Below, piece after piece: positions 14,549-38,531 of a stretch of 64,000 nt of DNA. The notes under the pieces were generated by a model that ran no database searches, was not told where the DNA came from, and worked only from the letters and a program-made list of their open reading frames with translations. The DNA lies in assembly GCF_003574135.1 (NCBI RefSeq), contig NZ_AP018341.1, positions 1,959,740 to 2,023,739 of the forward strand. Reading direction: 5' to 3'. Position numbers and translations under genes: made by a program. Numbering within the stretch: the stretch's first letter is position 1; each line of letters begins with the position of its first letter. The DNA comes from a cyanobacterium endosymbiont of Rhopalodia gibberula (GTDB lineage: Bacteria; Cyanobacteriota; Cyanobacteriia; Cyanobacteriales; Microcystaceae).

Positions 14549-15913
14549 ATGACAACATCGATCATAAAAAAAAGTGCACGTATCAACCAAATTTGGGAGA
14601 ATATTCTACTGGGATTGTCAAAAGAACGTCAATCTCAAGCAGTAGGTGAGCTGCAATTTCTATCAAAATTGCGGGAAGATGCAGTATCTGAGGCCCGGAC
14701 ACTGAACTTCCCGACAAGACAGGATGAAGATTGGAGATTTGCTGACTTGTCTGAATTGTCTAATATTCAGTTTAAACCGACAAAATCGGCTAATACCATT
14801 TCTCTAGAAAATTTATCCCCTTTCATATTACCCGAGGTACAAGAAAGTCGGCTCATTTTTGTTAATGGAGAGTATGTCCCTGAATTATCAAATTTATCTG
14901 CTTTACCTGAAGGGGTATATGTAGGAAATTTAATGGAGCTTCCCGAATCGAAGAAAGCCAAAGTTGTTCATTATCTGGGGAAAAATAACGAGGAAAAAGA
15001 CTTTTTCACTCTGACAAATACGGCAGATCTTTATCAGATTGCTATCGTTTGGGTCGACCCAGATATTATTGTCGACGTTCCTATTGATTTAATTTTTGTA
15101 TCTGTTCCTACAGATTCTCATAATTTAATTCAACCTCGTGTTTTAATGATAGCCGAAACAGGGTCAAATGTTACTTTTGTAGAAAATTATACGGCTATTG
15201 CCCAAGAATGTTCCAGTGTTGTAGAGAACAAACCTTATTTAGTAAATGGGGTAACAGAGATATTTTTGGAAAACAATGCCCACATTAATCATAGTCGAAT
15301 TCAACGAGAATTAGGAGATAGCTTTCACATCGGAAAAACCACAATTACCCAAAATCAAGAGAGTCGTTATATTTGTAATGATATTAGTCTAGGTGCAAAA
15401 CTCTCTCGCCACACTCTTAATGTGTTTCAACAAGGAAAGCAAACCGAAACTTACCTGAGTGGTCTGACAATGGTCGGAAGTTTACAGATTTCAGATACTC
15501 ATAGCGCAGTCTATCTTGACTATCCCCATGGAACAATCCATCAATTACACAAATGTATCATTGATGATCATGGGCATGGGATATTTAACGGTAAAATTTT
15601 CGTTCAAAAACCAGCACAGTTAACTAATGCAACCCAATTAAACCGAAATTTGTTGCTATCTTCAAAAGCCCGTATTGATACTAAACCAGAATTACAAATT
15701 ACTGCAGATAATGTTAAATGTTCTCACGGGGCAACTATTAGTCAATTAGAATCTGATGAACTCTTTTATTTACAAAGTCGTGGGTTAAGTCAAAACGACG
15801 CCCGTAACCTCTTAATTGATGCTTTTGCCACCGAAATCTTAGATAAACTTCCTCTTAAATCTCTGCGTCAAAGACTCGCTCAATGTGTTGCCTGTCGCAC
15901 TTTAGAATCCTAA
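14549..15913 (+). CDS. sufD: Fe-S cluster assembly protein SufD
   Basis: SufD is the SufB paralogue that forms the heterodimer in SufBC2D and is needed for iron entry. The 454-residue product has a divergent N-terminal half with FPTRQDEDWRFADLSEL (family hallmark, residues about 51-67), a beta-helix core and the conserved C-terminal block KCSHGATISQLESDELFYLQ, with Cys and His that correspond to the iron-site residues of the family. GGGAAG before the ATG at 14549 suits a ribosome binding site. It ends 86 bases before sufS. Confidence 0.96.
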   Translation: MTTSIIKKSARINQIWENILLGLSKERQSQAVGELQFLSKLREDAVSEARTLNFPTRQDEDWRFADLSELSNIQFKPTKSANTISLENLSPFILPEVQESRLIFVNGEYVPELSNLSALPEGVYVGNLMELPESKKAKVVHYLGKNNEEKDFFTLTNTADLYQIAIVWVDPDIIVDVPIDLIFVSVPTDSHNLIQPRVLMIAETGSNVTFVENYTAIAQECSSVVENKPYLVNGVTEIFLENNAHINHSRIQRELGDSFHIGKTTITQNQESRYICNDISLGAKLSRHTLNVFQQGKQTETYLSGLTMVGSLQISDTHSAVYLDYPHGTIHQLHKCIIDDHGHGIFNGKIFVQKPAQLTNATQLNRNLLLSSKARIDTKPELQITADNVKCSHGATISQLESDELFYLQSRGLSQNDARNLLIDAFATEILDKLPLKSLRQRLAQCVACRTLES

Positions 15914-15999
15914 ATAAATTATTAATTGCCTTAATAACTTATGTAGAAATATTTCAAGATGTTCAAGCCTCTAACTAACTCTTAACGTTTGAATTTGTC

Positions 16000-17259
16000 A
16001 TGATTTCTGTAAAAGAAAAAACTCTCGCTGCTAAAGTTCGTTCTGATTTTCCAATTTTACACCAAGAAATTAACGGAAAGTCATTGGTTTATCTCGACAA
16101 TGCTGCAACTTCTCAAAAACCTTTAATTGTCCTCGATACCCTGCGTCATTACTATGAAAAATATAACGCCAATGTTCATCGAGGGGCGCATAGTTTGAGT
16201 GTGCGGGCAACAGAAGCATATGAAGGGGCGAGAGACAAGGTAGCAAAATTTATCAATTCCGAATCATCTCAAGAAATTGTTTTTACTCGTAATGCTACAG
16301 AAGCCATTAATTTAGTCGCTTATAGTTGGGGATTAACCAACTTAAAGCCGGGAGATGAAATTATTATTTCCGTCATGGAACACCATAGTAATATTGTCCC
16401 CTGGCAAATGATAGCTCAAAAAACAGGGGCAGTAATCAAATATGTCTTCTTAACTGAACAAGAAGAATTTGATTTAGATCAGTTTAAATCCTTGTTATCT
16501 CGTAAGACAAGATTAGTAGCTATCGTCCATGTTTCTAATACGTTGGGCTGTATTAACCCAGTAAGAGAAATCACTTCTGCAGCTCATCAAGTGGGAGCAA
16601 AGGTATTAATTGATGCTTGTCAAAGTGCGCCCCATTTAGCTATTGATGTGCAGCACATTGGCTGTGATTGGTTGGTGGCTAGTGGACATAAAATGTGTGC
16701 TCCTACGGGAATTGGGTTTCTCTATGGTAAGAAAGAGATTTTAGAAGGTATGCCTCCTTTTCTTGGTGGAGGAGAAATGATAGGAGAGGTATTTCTTGAG
16801 GGGTTTACCCATGGAAAACTACCCCATAAATTTGAAGCAGGAACCCCTGCTGTTGGTGAAGTTATAGCCTTAGGAGCAGCAGTGGATTATTTAACAACTA
16901 TTGGATTGGATAAAATCCATGTTTATGAAGAAGAATTGACTACCTATTTGTTTAAAAGATTAACAGAAATTTCTAAGATACGGATTTATGGATCTAAGTC
17001 TAATTTAGACGGTAAAGGAAGAGCAGCATTAGCTTCCTTTAATGTCGAAGGAATTCATGGGAGTGATTTATCAACCTTATTAGATAATGAAGGAATTTCC
17101 ATTCGATCAGGACACCATTGCACTCAACCCTTACATCGCCTATTTAATGCCTCAGGAAGTGCCAGAGTAAGTTTATATTTTTATAATACCCTTGAGGAAA
17201 TTGACAGCTTTATTTTAGCTTTAAAAGAAACGATTGATTTTTTCACTGAAATTATGTGA
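16000..17259 (+). CDS. sufS: Cysteine desulfurase SufS
   Basis: SufS takes sulfur from cysteine as a persulfide and passes it to the SufBCD scaffold. The class V aminotransferase-fold enzyme of 419 residues shows [12 protein letters not shown] at 30-41, the PLP lysine K231 in [12 protein letters not shown], and the catalytic cysteine C374 in [14 protein letters not shown]. This is a group II desulfurase loop. No SufE is in the window; the usual partner must be encoded elsewhere. Last gene of sufBCDS; a GGTGGGA/TCCCACC hairpin follows at 17287-17303. Confidence 0.97.
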
Positions 17260-23676: not shown

Positions 23677-24927
23677 TTACTGATATTTCTTAAAAGCTAA
23701 AGTGACATTATGTCCACCAAATCCAAAGGAATTAGATAGGGCAACTTTGATATCAAAAGAGCGACTTTCATGAGGTACATAATCGAGATCACACTCAGGC
23801 TCAGGATTATCTAAATTAATTGTAGGAGGAACTCTTCCTTTAGCGATCGCCATGGCAGTGGCTACTGCTTCTATTCCTCCAGACCCCCCTAATAAATGGC
23901 CTGTCATTGACTTGGTAGAACTAATGAGAATTTCGTAAGCGTGTTTTCCCAAAGCCTTTTTAATAGCTTTAGTTTCCGTTACATCATTGGCTAGGGTACT
24001 AGTTCCGTGAGCATTAATGTAACTCACTTGTTCTGGAATCAGTCCCGCATCAGCTAACGCTAGTTCCATCGCTCGGGTTGCGCCGTAACCATCAGGAACG
24101 GGGGATGTCATATGATAAGCATCACAAGTCATGCCATAGCCGACGATTTCAGCATAGATTTTAGCCTCACGATCAAGAGCGTGTTCGAGTTCTTCAAGGA
24201 TTAGGATTCCTACCCCTTCACCCATCACGAACCCATCGCGATCACGATCAAAAGGACGACAGGCCATTGCTGGATAATCATTGCGAGTTGACAAAGCTCG
24301 AGCTGCCGCAAATCCGCCTATTCCCAAGGGCGTAATAGCAGCTTCGGTTCCCCCACAAATCATCGCTTTGGCGTAACCTCGTTGCACTAGGCGAAAAGCG
24401 TCTCCCACAGCATTAGAACCAGCAGCACAAGCAGTTACCGTACAGCTATTTGGTCCTTTAGCTCCCGTATGGATTGCTGTTAATCCAGCAGCCATATTGG
24501 CAATCATCATGGGAATCATGAAAGGGCTACAACGACTGGGTCCACGGTCAAGGTAGATTTTTTGTTGATCTTCGAGCACCTTTAGACCGCCAATCCCCGT
24601 CCCAATAATGACTCCCACTTGGTCTGCGTTAAGCTTATTAATCACTAACTGGGAATCGGACAAGGTTTGTAAACTCGCCGCTACCCCAAATTGTGCAAAA
24701 CGGTCCATCCGTTTAGCTTCTTTCCGGTCTAAGTAATCGTGGGGGTCGAATCCTTTGACTTCTCCGGCAAAACGGCAGGCATGCTGGGCGGCATCGAAAT
24801 GAGTAATTAAACCAATCCCATTGCGGCCACTAACTAATCCGTCCCAATATTCCATCAGGTTATTGCCAATGGGGGTTATTGCACCTAGTCCTGTTACGAC
24901 AACGCGCTTTAATTCTGAATTGGTCAT
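23677..24927 (-). CDS. fabF: 3-oxoacyl-ACP synthase II (KAS II)
   Basis: FabF elongates acyl-ACP with malonyl-ACP in type II fatty-acid synthesis. The 416-residue thiolase-fold enzyme has the C-H-K-H active site: C167 in TVTACAAGSNA, H307 in NAHGTST, K339 and H344 in TKSMTGHLLG. VVVTGLGAITPIGN is at the N-terminus. Its gene follows acpP by 91 bases on the same strand, the conserved acpP-fabF pair. A HIP1 octamer lies at 23843-23850. Together with accA at 55-56 kb it shows that lipid synthesis is retained. Confidence 0.97.
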   Translation of the reverse strand: MTNSELKRVVVTGLGAITPIGNNLMEYWDGLVSGRNGIGLITHFDAAQHACRFAGEVKGFDPHDYLDRKEAKRMDRFAQFGVAASLQTLSDSQLVINKLNADQVGVIIGTGIGGLKVLEDQQKIYLDRGPSRCSPFMIPMMIANMAAGLTAIHTGAKGPNSCTVTACAAGSNAVGDAFRLVQRGYAKAMICGGTEAAITPLGIGGFAAARALSTRNDYPAMACRPFDRDRDGFVMGEGVGILILEELEHALDREAKIYAEIVGYGMTCDAYHMTSPVPDGYGATRAMELALADAGLIPEQVSYINAHGTSTLANDVTETKAIKKALGKHAYEILISSTKSMTGHLLGGSGGIEAVATAMAIAKGRVPPTINLDNPEPECDLDYVPHESRSFDIKVALSNSFGFGGHNVTLAFKKYQ

Positions 24928-25018
24928 GATCTTCGCTTAAAGATATTAGGCTAACTCTGCCCCACAGATTATAGAGAGAGTAAGGGATGGGGACAGCAAC
25001 CTCTCCCAACAAGTAAGG

Positions 25019-25267
25019 TTAAGTGGTTGCTGTAATTTTTTCACCGATGTGTTCAACAGCTTTGCCAACTGTGTCAATTTGTTCGGCCACTTCGTCAGGA
25101 ATTTCAATATCAAATGCTTCTTCTAATGCCATAACCAGCTCAACAGTATCTAGGGAATCTGCTCCTAAGTCATTAGCAAAACTTGACTCCGGTGTTACCG
25201 TTCCCGGCTCAACTTCAAGTTGTTCGATAACGATGCTTTTAACTTTCTCAAAGATTTCTTGGTTCAT
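25019..25267 (-). CDS. acpP: Acyl carrier protein
   Basis: A small acidic 82-residue carrier of growing acyl chains. The phosphopantetheine attachment serine is S38 in [17 protein letters not shown]. Length and the four-helix pattern are standard. It precedes fabF in the same direction, probably in one transcript. The 100 bases before it are G-rich by the standard of the window, and a 20-bp-arm hairpin stands 167 bases upstream at 25434-25476. Confidence 0.97.
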
Positions 25268-26990: not shown

Positions 26991-29249
26991 CTAAACAACC
27001 TGATATACAATACTTAGAGTGGCCCAGGCACTGCTATCAAGAGCATAGCTATCAGCGAATGTTCCTCCTGACTCGTTTGAAAAAGCTCTAGGAGTATTTA
27101 AGTCTCCTAAGAGTGATTGTGTGATCTTGAGAGGCTCCTCTAGAGTAAATATTTGCCCTTGATCAAGTTTAAATCCTGAAAACTCTGCTAAGGTTTCTAA
27201 AGTTTTCGTAAAAGGGAATTTAGACCCGACAATCATCATTTGACCCCATCCCTGACTACTGGCTAGTGTCCAGTTAAGTCCTCGCGAAGAAAAAGGGACA
27301 AGCCTGGTTTCTCCTGGGGATAGGTGGGCTGTCTGTTGGGTTTGATTTTTTTGTTGGGGAGGTAAGTAGGCGGTGGTTTGTCCACTGGCATCTACTCCTA
27401 AAATTAGGTAATAGATAGGACAATCACCTCGATTTTCTAATCGACATTGGAAACGACTTCCTTGGGGTAGTTGAGGTAAATGCTGGAGTTGTAGGGAATC
27501 GGGAGGAAAATTTGTCGACGGCAAGAAATTAGCCTGAGTTAGATCTGAAGATGTTTTAACCGATGGTAGTTTGCGTAGAGTTTGTCGTTGTAGCACTAGG
27601 GAAGGATCTTGATCAAGATTTTTTAGTGTTACCCCTAGCCCCAATCCAGAAGAACCTTCATTAAGAGTAAGCCTCCACCACTTGATAGCCAAAAGTTTTT
27701 TTAAGGCGGGTTGAAGCCTCTCGACAGCTGATTTAATGGCTTCTCCCGATTGACCGAAGGTATTAGGAACGGGAATACCTCCTTGTAAAAAGAGTCCATA
27801 GCCTCCCTTTGTTTCTAATTCAGACGAATCTCCCTCATCAAAAATTAATGTCTTTTGTTGTCGTCCCAAGACGCAGTCAGCTCCTGACTCTCCTGCAGTA
27901 ATGACTGATGAGACAATTTTTACAGAGGCAAAAGCACTCGTCGCATCGACCCGTTCAATTCTCTCTAAGTTTTTATCGAGGGCAACATTAAGTCCTAGAG
28001 TTTTGGGAATCACACGCAAGGTTTCTTGAAGTAATTGCCCCTTTTGTAAGGGATATATATCAGTTTGGTCTTGTGGTATCTGAAGCAGTCGAACCTTACC
28101 AGTTAGTCCTTCAAGAGAGTATAATTGTACGATAATGGGATGTAAAGATTGGGAGCCAACCACCTTAAAGCAAGAATTAAGTCCGTAATGTTGCATAGCC
28201 GATAGGGGCAGTCCAGTTAGTTTAATGGTGGCGGTAGTTCTTTCTTCTACTTGTATAATCACTCCCTCAGCTCCCTGGGGGGTGACTGGAAGTAGGTAGT
28301 AGGTAAAAAGAGACTGTTTTTGGTTTGCTTGGAGTTGAGGTTGTTGTTGTTGTCCCCTGATGGGAAACATGTGTTCGCTGGAATTTTCCAGAAAAACTAT
28401 AGTTTTACTGGTGGGGACTGCCTGCCAGAGACATTGGGTTAAGAGATAGGTGAATAAACCAGTACTAAAGCCATTGCTCATGATTTCGGTGGCTACTTGC
28501 TGGTGTTGAGCAGCCCTTAGCAGAGTGCCAACTATTTGCGATGGTTTAGCTTGAACGTTTTTAGCTTTGAGTATTTCTTTTAATTGAGTTTGAAATGTCA
28601 TTTCTCCTGGACTAGCTTGTTGAGCCTCATAAGGAAAGGAACGTCCTTGTAGATTTCCTTCGAGTTCTCTTCCTAAATACTGATGACTGGTGTCCAAGAC
28701 CATGGTCAGTTTATCAGTAGCTAAAGACTGACCTAACAGTAGGAGAGTTTCTTCAAGAATATCGTTGGTTGTAGGAGTACCTTTAGTTAGGAAAATTCCA
28801 TCTTTGGGAACTAGACCCCGTTTTCGCGTTGACGAGAGAGGGGAACCATCATGAAGATTTTCTTTGACATAATTGCCATAGCCACTGAAGTGAAACAGTA
28901 CAACATCGCCTGCTTTCGCCTGTTGAATCAGATGTTCGGTGAAAGCCTGTTCTATTCTTTCACGAGTTCCCTGCTGTTCCGTTAAGGTCAAGATATCTTT
29001 ACGGGCAAATCCAAAGCGATAAATTAGTAATTCTCTTTGTCGCTCAACATCGGTAACACATCCTTTCAACTTGTAATGACTACTATAGTCATCAATACCT
29101 ACCAACAATGCCAGTTTACGGGGGGTTGGCGTAGCTAAGGTTTGATAGTAACGTTTAATTTTTGGTTGTCTAGAGAACCATTCAAGCCCTGCTTGACTAA
29201 TTCCCCAGATGAGCAAGGTCTTTAGAAAAGTCCGCCGATCCCATTCCAT
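26991..29249 (-). CDS. Caspase-like (C14) protein, YS-type pseudo-orthocaspase with Tat-like signal
   Basis: A 752-residue protein. Residues 1-21 (MEWDRRTFLKTLLIWGISQA) match a twin-arginine export signal (RRTFLK). Residues about 45-200 form a caspase p20-like fold: KLALLVGIDDYSSHYKLKGC, then VVLFHFSGYGN and LTMVLDTSHQYLG. The catalytic His of HFSGHG is Tyr at 124 and the catalytic Cys of the D-x-C-H site is Ser at 188, so it should not be a protease. Such YS pseudo-orthocaspases are known from cyanobacteria. The C-terminal 500 residues, about half of them beta-rich (a segment near 560-680 has RFQCRLENRGDCPIYYLILG), resemble the DUF4384-like tails of such proteins. It is a single-gene unit and intact despite the decayed surroundings. 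The function is unknown. Confidence 0.88.
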   Translation of the reverse strand: MEWDRRTFLKTLLIWGISQAGLEWFSRQPKIKRYYQTLATPTPRKLALLVGIDDYSSHYKLKGCVTDVERQRELLIYRFGFARKDILTLTEQQGTRERIEQAFTEHLIQQAKAGDVVLFHFSGYGNYVKENLHDGSPLSSTRKRGLVPKDGIFLTKGTPTTNDILEETLLLLGQSLATDKLTMVLDTSHQYLGRELEGNLQGRSFPYEAQQASPGEMTFQTQLKEILKAKNVQAKPSQIVGTLLRAAQHQQVATEIMSNGFSTGLFTYLLTQCLWQAVPTSKTIVFLENSSEHMFPIRGQQQQPQLQANQKQSLFTYYLLPVTPQGAEGVIIQVEERTTATIKLTGLPLSAMQHYGLNSCFKVVGSQSLHPIIVQLYSLEGLTGKVRLLQIPQDQTDIYPLQKGQLLQETLRVIPKTLGLNVALDKNLERIERVDATSAFASVKIVSSVITAGESGADCVLGRQQKTLIFDEGDSSELETKGGYGLFLQGGIPVPNTFGQSGEAIKSAVERLQPALKKLLAIKWWRLTLNEGSSGLGLGVTLKNLDQDPSLVLQRQTLRKLPSVKTSSDLTQANFLPSTNFPPDSLQLQHLPQLPQGSRFQCRLENRGDCPIYYLILGVDASGQTTAYLPPQQKNQTQQTAHLSPGETRLVPFSSRGLNWTLASSQGWGQMMIVGSKFPFTKTLETLAEFSGFKLDQGQIFTLEEPLKITQSLLGDLNTPRAFSNESGGTFADSYALDSSAWATLSIVYQVV

Positions 29250-29470: not shown

Positions 29471-29544
29471 TGGACGTAACTGGAATCGAACCAGTGACCC
29501 CATCGATGTCAACGATGTACTCTAACCAGCTGAGCTATACGTCC
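29471..29544 (-). tRNA. tRNA-Val(GAC)
   Basis: On minus, a 74-base cloverleaf with acceptor GGACGTA/TACGTCC, D-arm GCTC with an AGCTGGTTA loop, anticodon stem CATCG/CGATG around TTGACAT (anticodon GAC), and T-arm ACTGG-TTCGATT-CCAGT. Discriminator A; the CCA end is not encoded. All stems pair fully apart from a D-stem GAGT end position (G-T wobble). Confidence 0.95.
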
Positions 29545-29684: not shown

Positions 29685-31112
29685 ATGTACGAGAAACTAA
29701 TATCTCCAACCACCGGTTCTAAAATTACTTATGAAGACGGTAAACCTATTGTTCCTGATGATCCCATCATTCCCTTCATTCGAGGTGATGGAATAGGTGT
29801 AGACATTTGGCCAGCTACTAAAAAGGTAATCGATGCTGCGGTCGCCACTGCGTATGGAGACAAACGCCAAGTTAACTGGTTTAAAGTCTATGCAGGAGAT
29901 GAAGCGTGTGACCTGTATGGAACCTATCAATACTTACCCGATGATACTCTTAAAGCTATTGGAGAATATGGTATCGCTATCAAAGGACCCTTAACTACTC
30001 CCATCGGTGGGGGGATTCGTTCGCTTAACGTTGCATTACGGCAAATTTTTACCCTCTATGCTTGCGTTCGTCCCTGTCGTTACTATCATGGGACTCCTTC
30101 TCCCCATAAGTCGCCTGAAAAACTCGATGTTATTGTTTATAGAGAAAATACCGAAGATATTTATTTAGGAATTGAATGGCGTGAGGGCACAGAAATTGCT
30201 CAAAATTTGATTAAATATCTCAATGATGAGTTAATTGCTATAACCCCTGAACATGGACAAAAACGTATTCCCCTTGACGCGGGGATTGGGATTAAACCTA
30301 TTAGTAAAACGGGTTCCCAAAGACTAGTTCGCCGTGCTATGGAACACGCATTACGTCTCCCAAAAAACAAACAAATGGTTACCTTAGTCCATAAAGGGAA
30401 TATAATGAAGTACACCGAGGGAGCTTTCCGCGACTGGGGTTATGAACTAGCTACGACAGAATTTCGAGATGTCTGCGTTACAGAACGGGAATCATGGATT
30501 TTAGGTAATAAAGAAGGTAATCCTAGTATTAGGATTGAAGATAATGCGCGCAAAGTCGAACCCGGTTACGATTCTTTGACCTCTGCAAAGAAACAAGAAG
30601 TATGTGCTGAAGTTAGATCGATTTTACAGTCAATTTGGGATAGTCACGGGGATGGAAAATGGAAGAATAAAATCATGGTCAACGACCGTATTGCTGACAG
30701 TATTTTCCAACAAATTCAAACCCGTCCCGATGAATATTCTATTCTTGCAACTATGAACCTGAACGGAGACTATCTCTCTGACGCTGCTGCTGCTGTGGTT
30801 GGTGGTTTAGGAATGGGTCCTGGTGCTAATATTGGGGATACTTGTGCTATTTTTGAAGCTACTCACGGAACCGCACCCAAACATGCAGGTTTAGATAGAA
30901 TTAATCCTGGTTCAGTAATTTTATCTGGAGTAATGATGTTAGAGTATCTAGGATGGCAAGAAGCGGCAAATTTGATTAAAAAAGGCATTGGAAACGCGAT
31001 CGTTAACCGCGAAGTGACTTATGATTTAGCAAGGTTAATGGAACCTCCTGTTGATTCTCCTTTAAAATGTTCGGAGTTTGCTCAGGCAATTATTGATCAT
31101 TTTGTGGATTAG
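29685..31112 (+). CDS. icd: Isocitrate dehydrogenase, NADP-dependent
   Basis: Icd makes 2-oxoglutarate, the carbon skeleton for ammonium assimilation and so central to a nitrogen-fixing lifestyle if the organism is one. The 475 residues match cyanobacterial NADP-ICDH (longer than the 416 of E. coli). Visible: [20 protein letters not shown] (substrate-serine loop, about 99-118), [28 protein letters not shown] (about 246-259), and the coenzyme/metal region [17 protein letters not shown] and [19 protein letters not shown] hairpin terminator follows. It is alone in its transcription unit, next to tRNA-Val in the opposite orientation. Confidence 0.97.
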
Positions 31113-37145: not shown

Positions 37146-38531
37146 TTATTTAAAATGGGTATAATGAGAACTGAGTTTAAGTAATATTTCCTGGTGAACT
37201 TGTCGAGTAATTGGATAAAAATAGGCTAAAATTAATCCTATGAGTAAAATCCCTGTGGAAATAGGGCCGATAATAATCCGAATTGCCCATAGAGCTGATT
37301 CAGTTTGTACTCCTTCACCGGAAGGAATATACCCTGACCAATCTAAGATTTGACCGACAAAAAACAAGGCTAAAGCAACTCCTATTTTTTGCAACTGTAC
37401 TACCACTCCAAAAAAAATACCCTCTCGTCTTTCTCCAGTATTTAATTCATCTAAATCTATAACATCAGGCAACATTGACCAAGGAACAATATAAGCAGTT
37501 GCAATTCCGATACCAGCCATAAAAGCAAGAATGTACAGTAATACTACTTGTCCTGATTGTAGAAAAAATAGTCCTAATCCTGCAATAATTATAGACTGTA
37601 TACCATATAAATATATATACTTTTTTTCAATTTTCTTACTCATAAAATTTAATAAAATTAGTACAAATAATGCTGTGCTTTGAACTGTGATAGCCATTTG
37701 GGTGACATGAGTTTCTTGTAATTTCATACAATTAATTACAAAAAAAGGAAGAGTTGATGCAATGATTTGAATACCCAACCAAGAACAAAGATAAATTCCC
37801 ATGACATATAGAAAAGGACGATTATTAAATGCCAAGTACAATTCTTTTTTAAAAGATAGGGGAGAAGTTTTGTTGCTTTTTAGATGTTTTTGTTGAACTT
37901 GATGGTAACGATGATAAGTTCCCCAAACACTGATGTATATCATCAGCATTGCCAGCAATCCACAAATTAATCCTATTAACAAATACTGTTGTTTTATATT
38001 ATAGATTTTTGTAAAAATTATTTGTGCTAAAACTAGAGAGAAAATACTACCACCAATACTAAAAGCTGAGCGAAAACTAATTAAACTTGTACGTTCATCA
38101 TACTCTTGTGTTAACTCAGCAGATAAAGTTCCGTAAGGTAAAAGAACTGCTGTAAAAGATACATAAAATAAAAAAGAAACCACTCCATAATAAACAAATA
38201 AAAGTATCTGATTAGTAGTAGGAGGAACCACCCACAATAAAATAGAAGTTATTCCTAAAGGAACTGATCCAAATAACATCCAAGGATAGCGTCTCCCCCA
38301 ACGAGAACAAGTATGATCGCTCAACCAACCAATAACTGGATCATTAATCCCATCCCATACTTTACCTACCAACATCATCAATCCCGCCAAACCTGGACTT
38401 AAACCAGCTACATTTGTTAAGAAGAATAGAAAGAAGAAAATCAAAATATTACTAGGAAGAGCTCCACTTAATTCTCCAATTCCATAGAAAAATTTTGTAT
38501 GGAAAGTTAATTTTTTTTCTTTGCTGAGCAT
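37146..38531 (-). CDS. MFS transporter, GPH (glycoside-pentoside-hexuronide:cation symporter) family
   Basis: A 461-residue, 12-helix membrane protein. Early motifs FFYGIGELSGALPSNIL and GKVWDGINDPVIGWLSDHT plus RWGRRYPWMLFG are diagnostic of GPH/MelB-type symporters, which bring sugars in with Na+ or H+. The second half carries GERREGIFFGVVVQLQKIGVALAL, also family typical. For an endosymbiont without photosynthesis such a sugar importer could matter for host-supplied carbon, but the substrate cannot be read from sequence. It is transcribed against its neighbours, so it is a unit of its own. Confidence 0.88.
   Translation of the reverse strand: MLSKEKKLTFHTKFFYGIGELSGALPSNILIFFFLFFLTNVAGLSPGLAGLMMLVGKVWDGINDPVIGWLSDHTCSRWGRRYPWMLFGSVPLGITSILLWVVPPTTNQILLFVYYGVVSFLFYVSFTAVLLPYGTLSAELTQEYDERTSLISFRSAFSIGGSIFSLVLAQIIFTKIYNIKQQYLLIGLICGLLAMLMIYISVWGTYHRYHQVQQKHLKSNKTSPLSFKKELYLAFNNRPFLYVMGIYLCSWLGIQIIASTLPFFVINCMKLQETHVTQMAITVQSTALFVLILLNFMSKKIEKKYIYLYGIQSIIIAGLGLFFLQSGQVVLLYILAFMAGIGIATAYIVPWSMLPDVIDLDELNTGERREGIFFGVVVQLQKIGVALALFFVGQILDWSGYIPSGEGVQTESALWAIRIIIGPISTGILLIGLILAYFYPITRQVHQEILLKLSSHYTHFK

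Follow-up and report, generated by a model that had tools for sequence, protein, structure and literature searches.

The genome of the cyanobacterial endosymbiont (spheroid body) of Rhopalodia gibberula (3,020,309 bp) raises the question of why a decaying genome should keep intact the gene for a caspase-like protein whose catalytic residues appear to have been replaced. The gene lies in a 64,000-nucleotide stretch of contig NZ_AP018341.1 (positions 1,959,740 to 2,023,739), hereafter the window, whose own numbering is used for coordinates within it, and occupies 26991-29249 of the reverse strand: 752 codons from an ATG start to a TAG stop with no internal stop, in agreement with a preliminary description of the locus that called it fully open. 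It is not a chance open reading frame (ORF), because it is matched in 58 of the 59 genomes searched, its own included, in 54 of them as a single near-full-length stretch; the matches in genomes G009, G034, G044 and G056 are partial or fragmented, and none was seen in G019. The product is, judged by its sequence, a member of the known cyanobacterial pseudo-orthocaspases that have Tyr and Ser in place of the catalytic His and Cys (YS class). The reading to which we lean, at just under an even chance, is that of a catalytically dead orthocaspase, probably exported by twin-arginine translocation (Tat), that would bind partners or act as a scaffold once across a membrane, in the periplasm or the thylakoid lumen. 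The interest of the gene lies in the bearing of its host on the function of the family, and in a ten-residue block, RIERVDATSA, rather than in the dyad.

The catalytic dyad and the RIERVDATSA block

Residues 44-309 (28323-29120) match the p20 caspase-like domain (Pfam PF00656, Peptidase_C14) at 65.5 bits against a cut-off of 21.4, and a profile of 30 orthologues (A2) matches metacaspases in the PDB with E values of 1.3e-18 to 1.4e-12, its FHFSGYG motif falling on FHYSGHG, which holds the His position, of a solved plant metacaspase. All 11 full-length relatives that carry the His-Cys dyad of active orthocaspases (HC relatives) have SGHG and LDSC, as against SGYG and LDTS in the R. gibberula symbiont protein; because of this alignment Tyr124 (28878-28880, in FHFSGYG) and Ser188 (28686-28688, in LDTSH) are placed at the positions of the catalytic His and Cys, respectively, as had been proposed earlier. 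Tyr and Ser stand there in all 30 orthologues of the profile, the dyad of an active orthocaspase being absent, and protease activity has presumably been lost. The assignment of the p20 fold is drawn from homology; the mean predicted local distance difference test (pLDDT) score of AlphaFold2 was 30.6 for the whole protein with a five-row alignment (A1) and 33.1 for residues 39-333 as a single sequence.

The relationship of the YS proteins to other orthocaspases was followed in two sets. The HC set comprised 12 rows from 20 loci (the remaining loci yielded none), from which three more distant proteins (two in L063 and one in L056, all with His and Cys) were left out, one of them serving as the outgroup of a 40-row tree; two further HC proteins, G095b and G209b, were added with the wider set, giving the 11. 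The wider set combined the 30 YS proteins with 23 pseudo-variants from across the cyanobacteria to give 53 pseudo-orthocaspases (L051 was dropped as a repeat of L029, and L108, from G213, gave no row). In the 40-row tree the 30 YS proteins lie on one side of a branch and nine HC proteins on the other, with support of 100/100, although the outgroup is very long and the rooting unsure; together with the uniform Tyr and Ser, this bears out the earlier placement in the YS class. The 53 pseudo-orthocaspases are likewise divided from the 11 HC relatives by a single split with a Shimodaira-Hasegawa-like approximate likelihood-ratio (SH-aLRT) support of 100 when the columns of the dyad and the block are removed. 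The YS proteins are not one clade in the 64-protein tree, the label requiring seven changes, at least five of them on supported branches (by a quick method, with long-branch warnings).

Within the pseudo family the dyad has drifted: 41 members are YS, eight YG, and one each LG, HG, LS and YR. The Tyr column ranks 11th of 752 in conservation and the Ser column 138th. The weight that the preliminary description placed on the YS dyad was partly misplaced: both residues were correctly identified, but at position 188 ten of the 53 proteins have Gly and one has Arg. The same substitutions bear on the idea of a hidden hydrolase, in which Ser188, paired with His120 or Tyr124, would make the nucleophilic attack. 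Ser could in principle do so and His120 is invariant in the 30 orthologues, but His120 is also present in all nine HC enzymes examined, which marks it as ancestral, and it is replaced by Ala or Gln in G025, G034, G087 and G215. Catalysis through His120 and Ser188 was accordingly rejected, and we give next to no credence to a hydrolase of this kind. The putative substrate pocket has fared differently from the dyad: of the four S1-pocket residues, named for TbMC2 in PMC6426788 and mapped here by spacing to the span 28692-29060, Asp67, Ser122 and Asp186 are invariant in 53/53 pseudo and 11/11 HC proteins, and Cys64 is kept in 50/53 and 9/11.

The feature that most clearly sets the pseudo family apart is RIERVDATSA (residues 430-439, 27933-27962), identified in the alignment of the 53 pseudo and 11 HC proteins. 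It is recognisable in every pseudo protein and absent from all 11 full-length HC relatives compared. Of the nine positions tabulated, 430-438, Ile431, Glu432 and Asp435 are present in 53/53 pseudo proteins, and Arg430, Arg433, Val434, Ala436, Thr437 and Ser438 in 49-52 of them. It is the most pseudo-specific window of ten residues, with 3.83 bits per column in the pseudo proteins versus 1.52 in the HC proteins, a gap of 2.31 compared with 0.48 for the next window, and the second most conserved such window of the family. A search with the middle region (residues 395-545) turned up no homologue standing alone: 38 of 39 genomes, the symbiont's own included, have a match, each of the places listed overlapping one where the whole protein matches. 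The string ERVDATSA gave no match in a literature search whose reach did not extend to supplements and preprints. The drift of the dyad within one family of 53 members, set beside a near-invariant block, is new here, and the signature brings together variants such as YG and HG that published accounts regard as scattered or as separate acquisitions.

Selective constraint and a probable export signal

A full-length copy is present in each of the four spheroid-body genomes, all of them single contigs: those of R. gibberula (G000), of Epithemia clementina (G001, 91% identity to the R. gibberula copy), of Epithemia turgida (G003, 92%) and of the specimen uoEpiScrs1 (G004, 82%), a name that belongs to Epithemia pelagica (PMC11167328); the copy of the unicellular cyanobacterium SU2 is 70% identical. 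Pairwise codon models give the R. gibberula copy a ratio of nonsynonymous to synonymous substitution (dN/dS, omega) of 0.187 against E. turgida, 0.190 against E. clementina, 0.167 against uoEpiScrs1 and 0.207 against SU2. A value near 1, which would have undone the earlier description, is rejected for the three endosymbiont pairs (twice the log-likelihood difference 108.4, 119.0 and 222.9), and fixing the endosymbiont crown at omega 1 lowers the log-likelihood from -10745.3 to -10961.6 (twice the difference 432.6). A separate omega for the endosymbiont branches (0.162 versus 0.208 elsewhere) gains 2.4 log-likelihood units for one parameter, a small effect on which we do not lean.

This constraint is ordinary. 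Counted from the lowest omega among genes of the window, the pseudo-orthocaspase ranks 15th of 35, 28th of 35, 31st of 35 and 7th of 8 in the four comparisons, in a list of 37 ORFs of which the short overlapping ORFs 6203 and 46126 are probably spurious and some lack some of the comparisons. The gene is thus under purifying selection that is middling to weak among its neighbours, and the notion of an exceptionally constrained gene is rejected by these ranks. They also count against the suggestion, made when the gene was first described, that retention in a shrinking genome implies an essential or symbiosis-relevant function, as do the ancestral distribution of the gene (58/59 genomes) and the normal growth of a Synechocystis knock-out (PMC7889975). 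At the other extreme, the gene might be a slowly decaying relic without present function, in keeping with a decaying genome of 286 pseudogenes (PMC5638926, Table 1). It is, however, intact in 4/4 spheroid bodies at synonymous divergences (dS) of 0.22-0.62 from the R. gibberula copy, neutrality is rejected as above, and a nearby major facilitator superfamily (MFS) gene at 37146 seems to have been disrupted in the E. turgida symbiont; a relic is hardly credible.

The N terminus, MEWDRRTFLK, opens a twin-arginine-type signal found by motif scan (residues 1-43, 29121-29249; the Arg pair, residues 5-6, at 29232-29237). Arg5, Arg6, Phe8 and Leu9 are invariant in 30/30 orthologues, and the Arg pair is present in 21 of the 23 further pseudo-variants. 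The hydrophobic stretch that follows is modest, its best 13-residue Kyte-Doolittle mean being 1.14 in the R. gibberula copy and 0.74-1.10 in the other three spheroid bodies, and the nearest AxA-like site in the scan, Thr37-Leu38-Ala39, fits the relaxed pattern [AVSTIL]xA. The omega of these 43 codons (0.54-1.14 against the three endosymbionts) is too noisy to read. The tatC gene is open in 11/11 genomes tested, that of the R. gibberula symbiont included. The Tat-like signal noted in the preliminary description thus holds up, the protein is probably exported by this route, and such a signal was published for YS pseudo-orthocaspases in 2019 (PMC6426788). It should be noted that the motif is not specific to the YS class, because the nine full-length HC relatives L066-L074 (722-779 residues) carry it as well, with Arg-Arg then [FLM] in 30/30 YS and 9/9 HC proteins. 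As a separate observation, the HC orthocaspases L066-L074, L119 and L129 match the pseudo family in twin-arginine motif and length and are, by their sequences, probably exported active orthocaspases; no description of such an exported-type group was found in the sections of the literature covered.

Photosystem loss and the function of the protein

The main published hypothesis, drawn from distribution, ties YS pseudo-orthocaspases to photosynthesis and/or thylakoids (PMC6426788), and the spheroid bodies allow its two halves to be considered separately. The R. gibberula spheroid body has 1,671 protein genes and no functional genes for photosystem I or II (PMC5638926), and spheroid bodies retain thylakoid membranes after the loss of the photosystems (PMC11070190; PMC5638926); they amount to a natural experiment in which photosystems are gone, thylakoids kept and the gene kept. 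That the host genome is non-photosynthetic is the strongest point to bear on the hypothesis, and one that the preliminary description did not raise. In our searches PsaA/B is present in the R. gibberula symbiont as fragments with stop codons (2492356-2493001), is wrecked by many stops in that of E. clementina and has no match in the E. turgida symbiont or uoEpiScrs1. PF00124 (PsbA/PsbD) has no match in the R. gibberula symbiont or uoEpiScrs1, and the best matches in the E. clementina and E. turgida symbionts are weak (1.3e-8 and 8.6e-11, respectively). Two genomes of 1,443,806 and 1,491,611 bases also keep the gene; because of their size, and because they have PsaA/B without a match to PF00124, which fits the published state of UCYN-A, photosystem I kept and photosystem II lost (PMC11070190; PMC4804200), they are probably UCYN-A. 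The omega between their two copies, 0.094, is not special, since purifying selection has been reported for 873 of 887 shared UCYN-A genes (PMC4804200). The retention of the gene in four spheroid bodies and two probable UCYN-A genomes despite photosystem loss (in the latter of PsbA/PsbD only) is new here. No title or abstract joining YS pseudo-orthocaspases with spheroid bodies or UCYN-A was found among those listed in a search that did not extend to supplements and preprints. Within the portions of the papers available, the word caspase has no occurrence in PMC5638926, PMC11070190, PMC11131595, PMC12903740, PMC11167328 or PMC4804200, UCYN-A (or Atelocyanobacterium) is not mentioned in PMC6426788, PMC8283722 or PMC7475262 nor Epithemia in PMC6426788 or PMC7475262, and the main text of PMC6426788 names no Rhopalodia, Epithemia or UCYN-A genome.

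A part in oxygenic photosynthesis would agree with the light-regulated expression in two strains cited in PMC6426788 and with the co-occurrence of the gene and PsaA/B in part of the phylum. Of 386 genomes drawn from the phylum, 183 match PsaA/B (E up to 1e-50), 125 match both PsaA/B and the A2 profile, and 130 match the profile (E up to 1e-20), some of these perhaps through HC proteins alone, as full-length HC relatives match the profile too and the dyad was read in part of the genomes. Outside one family, f36, 125 of 126 genomes with PsaA/B match the profile, the wrecked PsaA/B of the E. clementina symbiont being counted among the 125. The 58 genomes that have PsaA/B and no profile match are 57 of f36 (1.6-3.7 Mb), by its genome sizes presumably the marine Synechococcus/Prochlorococcus/Cyanobium group, and G404. 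Five genomes match the profile without PsaA/B at that threshold: those of the R. gibberula and E. turgida symbionts, the draft G417 and the deep-branching G068 and G094, whose matches are weak. A miss in a draft may be an assembly gap, as in G033 (gene without PsaA/B) and in G007 and G052 (PsaA/B without PF00124). The gene and PsaA/B thus come apart in both directions. A role in photosynthesis is weakened because the gene is intact and under purifying selection in four spheroid bodies that lack functional photosystem genes, and in the two 1.4-1.5 Mb genomes without PF00124, and because 58 of the 183 PsaA/B genomes lack it; such a role cannot be the whole story, and as the sole role we regard it as very unlikely.

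The second half of the hypothesis, a role in thylakoid membrane biogenesis or in the respiratory electron transport housed there, is consistent with the thylakoids of the spheroid bodies, which would be kept for respiration and leave room for a task at either the thylakoid or the envelope. It also agrees with the lack of pseudo-orthocaspases in Gloeobacter, which has no thylakoids, and with the ability of Tat to deliver proteins to the lumen (PMC6426788). The 57 PsaA/B-bearing f36 genomes (57/57), G404 and G019, all presumably thylakoid-bearing, lack the gene, so that its task is dispensable in some such phototrophs, and a strictly thylakoid role is in our view rather unlikely. PF00656 found nothing in G404, G019 or seven of eight f36 genomes tested, with a single match of 35.5 bits in G213. 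G404 (2.2 Mb) and G019 (2.8 Mb), drafts outside f36 that carry PsaA/B, may represent independent losses.

A further possibility is a regulator of stress or death that lowers tolerance of oxidative stress, as does SyOC (sll0148) in Synechocystis, whose deletion has no growth phenotype under normal conditions and makes cells more tolerant of H2O2, and which is itself down-regulated by H2O2 (PMC7889975). Nitrogen-fixing symbionts would be expected to face oxygen stress, but a purely death-favouring protein should vanish rapidly from an obligate symbiont, and the four spheroid bodies and both UCYN-A-like genomes still have this one. Nor was an active orthocaspase partner found there in the PF00656 search: exactly one match each was found in G000, G001, G002, G003, G004, G013 and G021, and therefore the protein cannot act through an active orthocaspase in the R. 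gibberula symbiont and these relatives. A regulator of an active orthocaspase is rejected for these genomes, and a stress or death regulator is in our view unlikely. The loss of other caspases during symbiosis is unsupported, since SU2 (a draft of 5.2 Mb, presumed to be free-living) also has one PF00656 match, and the presence of a single caspase is probably older than the symbiosis.

We retain the reading of an exported binder or scaffold, because a protein that has lost its cutting residues keeps the pocket and the export motif, together with a block peculiar to the family and nearly invariant in it. The p20 pocket would still hold basic (Arg/Lys) peptides without cutting them, RIERVDATSA may be a new interaction site that replaced catalysis, and the task could be envelope or thylakoid upkeep or stress sensing, needed with or without photosystems and in a cell without an active orthocaspase. 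Several observations weigh against this. The hydrophobic (h) region of the signal is weakly hydrophobic and has no strict AxA site; selection on the gene is no stronger than on other retained genes; 57 small f36 genomes with photosystem I, G404 and G019 live without it; and the family rows were found with the A2 profile, which includes the block and could miss block-less pseudo-variants, the HC relatives coming from the same search. For the family as a whole we tentatively propose, as somewhat short of an even chance, that the YS, YG, LG, LS, HG and YR pseudo-orthocaspases are one orthologous family that arose by a single exchange of proteolysis for a RIERVDATSA recognition site, and whose exported product has a photosynthesis-independent job at the membrane that has persisted into N2-fixing endosymbionts becoming organelles. 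Mutagenesis and pull-down could be aimed at the ten residues of RIERVDATSA.

Genomic neighbourhood and known systems

In the window the gene is followed on the same strand by fabF and acpP (23677-25267, reverse strand; fabF by PF00109/PF02801, acpP named from its sequence alone) and preceded by tRNA-Val(gac) (29471-29544, reverse strand, ARAGORN) and the divergent isocitrate dehydrogenase gene icd (29685-31112, forward strand, PF00180). Among 20 genomes of relatives (L036-L055), 14 have ATP sulfurylase (sat) as the immediate upstream neighbour in the same orientation, and 12 have nearby a protein of about 545 residues, putatively DUF6930-like. Linkage to sat is not needed, because sat is intact but located elsewhere in all four spheroid bodies, and the neighbourhood was dropped as a functional clue. 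Elsewhere in the window, a sufD-like gene (PF01458) followed by a class-V aminotransferase gene (sufS-like, PF00266) forms an apparently intact Fe-S assembly stretch (14549-17259, forward strand). The MFS gene mentioned above, a sugar transporter of the MFS_2 family (PF13347; 37146-38531, reverse strand), is intact here and has full-length relatives in the E. clementina symbiont, uoEpiScrs1 and SU2; 63 codons align in the E. turgida symbiont. Conserved ORFs of at least 100 residues occupy about 52% of the window, consistent with reported gene decay.

Four known systems invite comparison. TbMC4 of Trypanosoma brucei, compared by its description in PMC6426788, is a pseudo-metacaspase with the same YS replacement, but it is eukaryotic and acts with an active metacaspase, whereas the R. 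gibberula symbiont has no second PF00656 match. SyOC of Synechocystis PCC 6803, like the R. gibberula copy, is the sole orthocaspase of its genome and has a pseudo-dyad, but the dyad is YG and the host a free-living phototroph (PMC7889975). It probably belongs to the same orthologous family, since the block is found in two YG proteins, G025 and G034. The full-length Tat-type HC orthocaspases (L066-L074) share length, twin-arginine motif, p20 domain and whole-protein alignment with the R. gibberula copy, and differ in that His-Cys is intact and RIERVDATSA absent, as in all 11 HC relatives. Among symbionts, Nostoc azollae 0708 lives with a plant. It is listed with pseudo-orthocaspases only (PMC8283722). 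The closest counterparts are the YS pseudo-orthocaspases themselves (Klemencic et al. 2019, PMC6426788), for which no other domain is reported and, in the portions of that paper available, no description of the block was found. The R. gibberula copy has a DUF4384 domain (PF14326, 30.2 bits against a cut-off of 27; residues 594-677, 27219-27470), detected in 28 of the 30 YS orthologues and listed for four pseudo-orthocaspases in PMC8283722. It shares with the published YS proteins the dyad, the acidic pocket, the N-terminal Arg-Arg signal, the lack of a p10 domain by that paper's definition of orthocaspases and the single copy seen in several unicellular genomes, and differs from them in residing in a non-photosynthetic endosymbiont.

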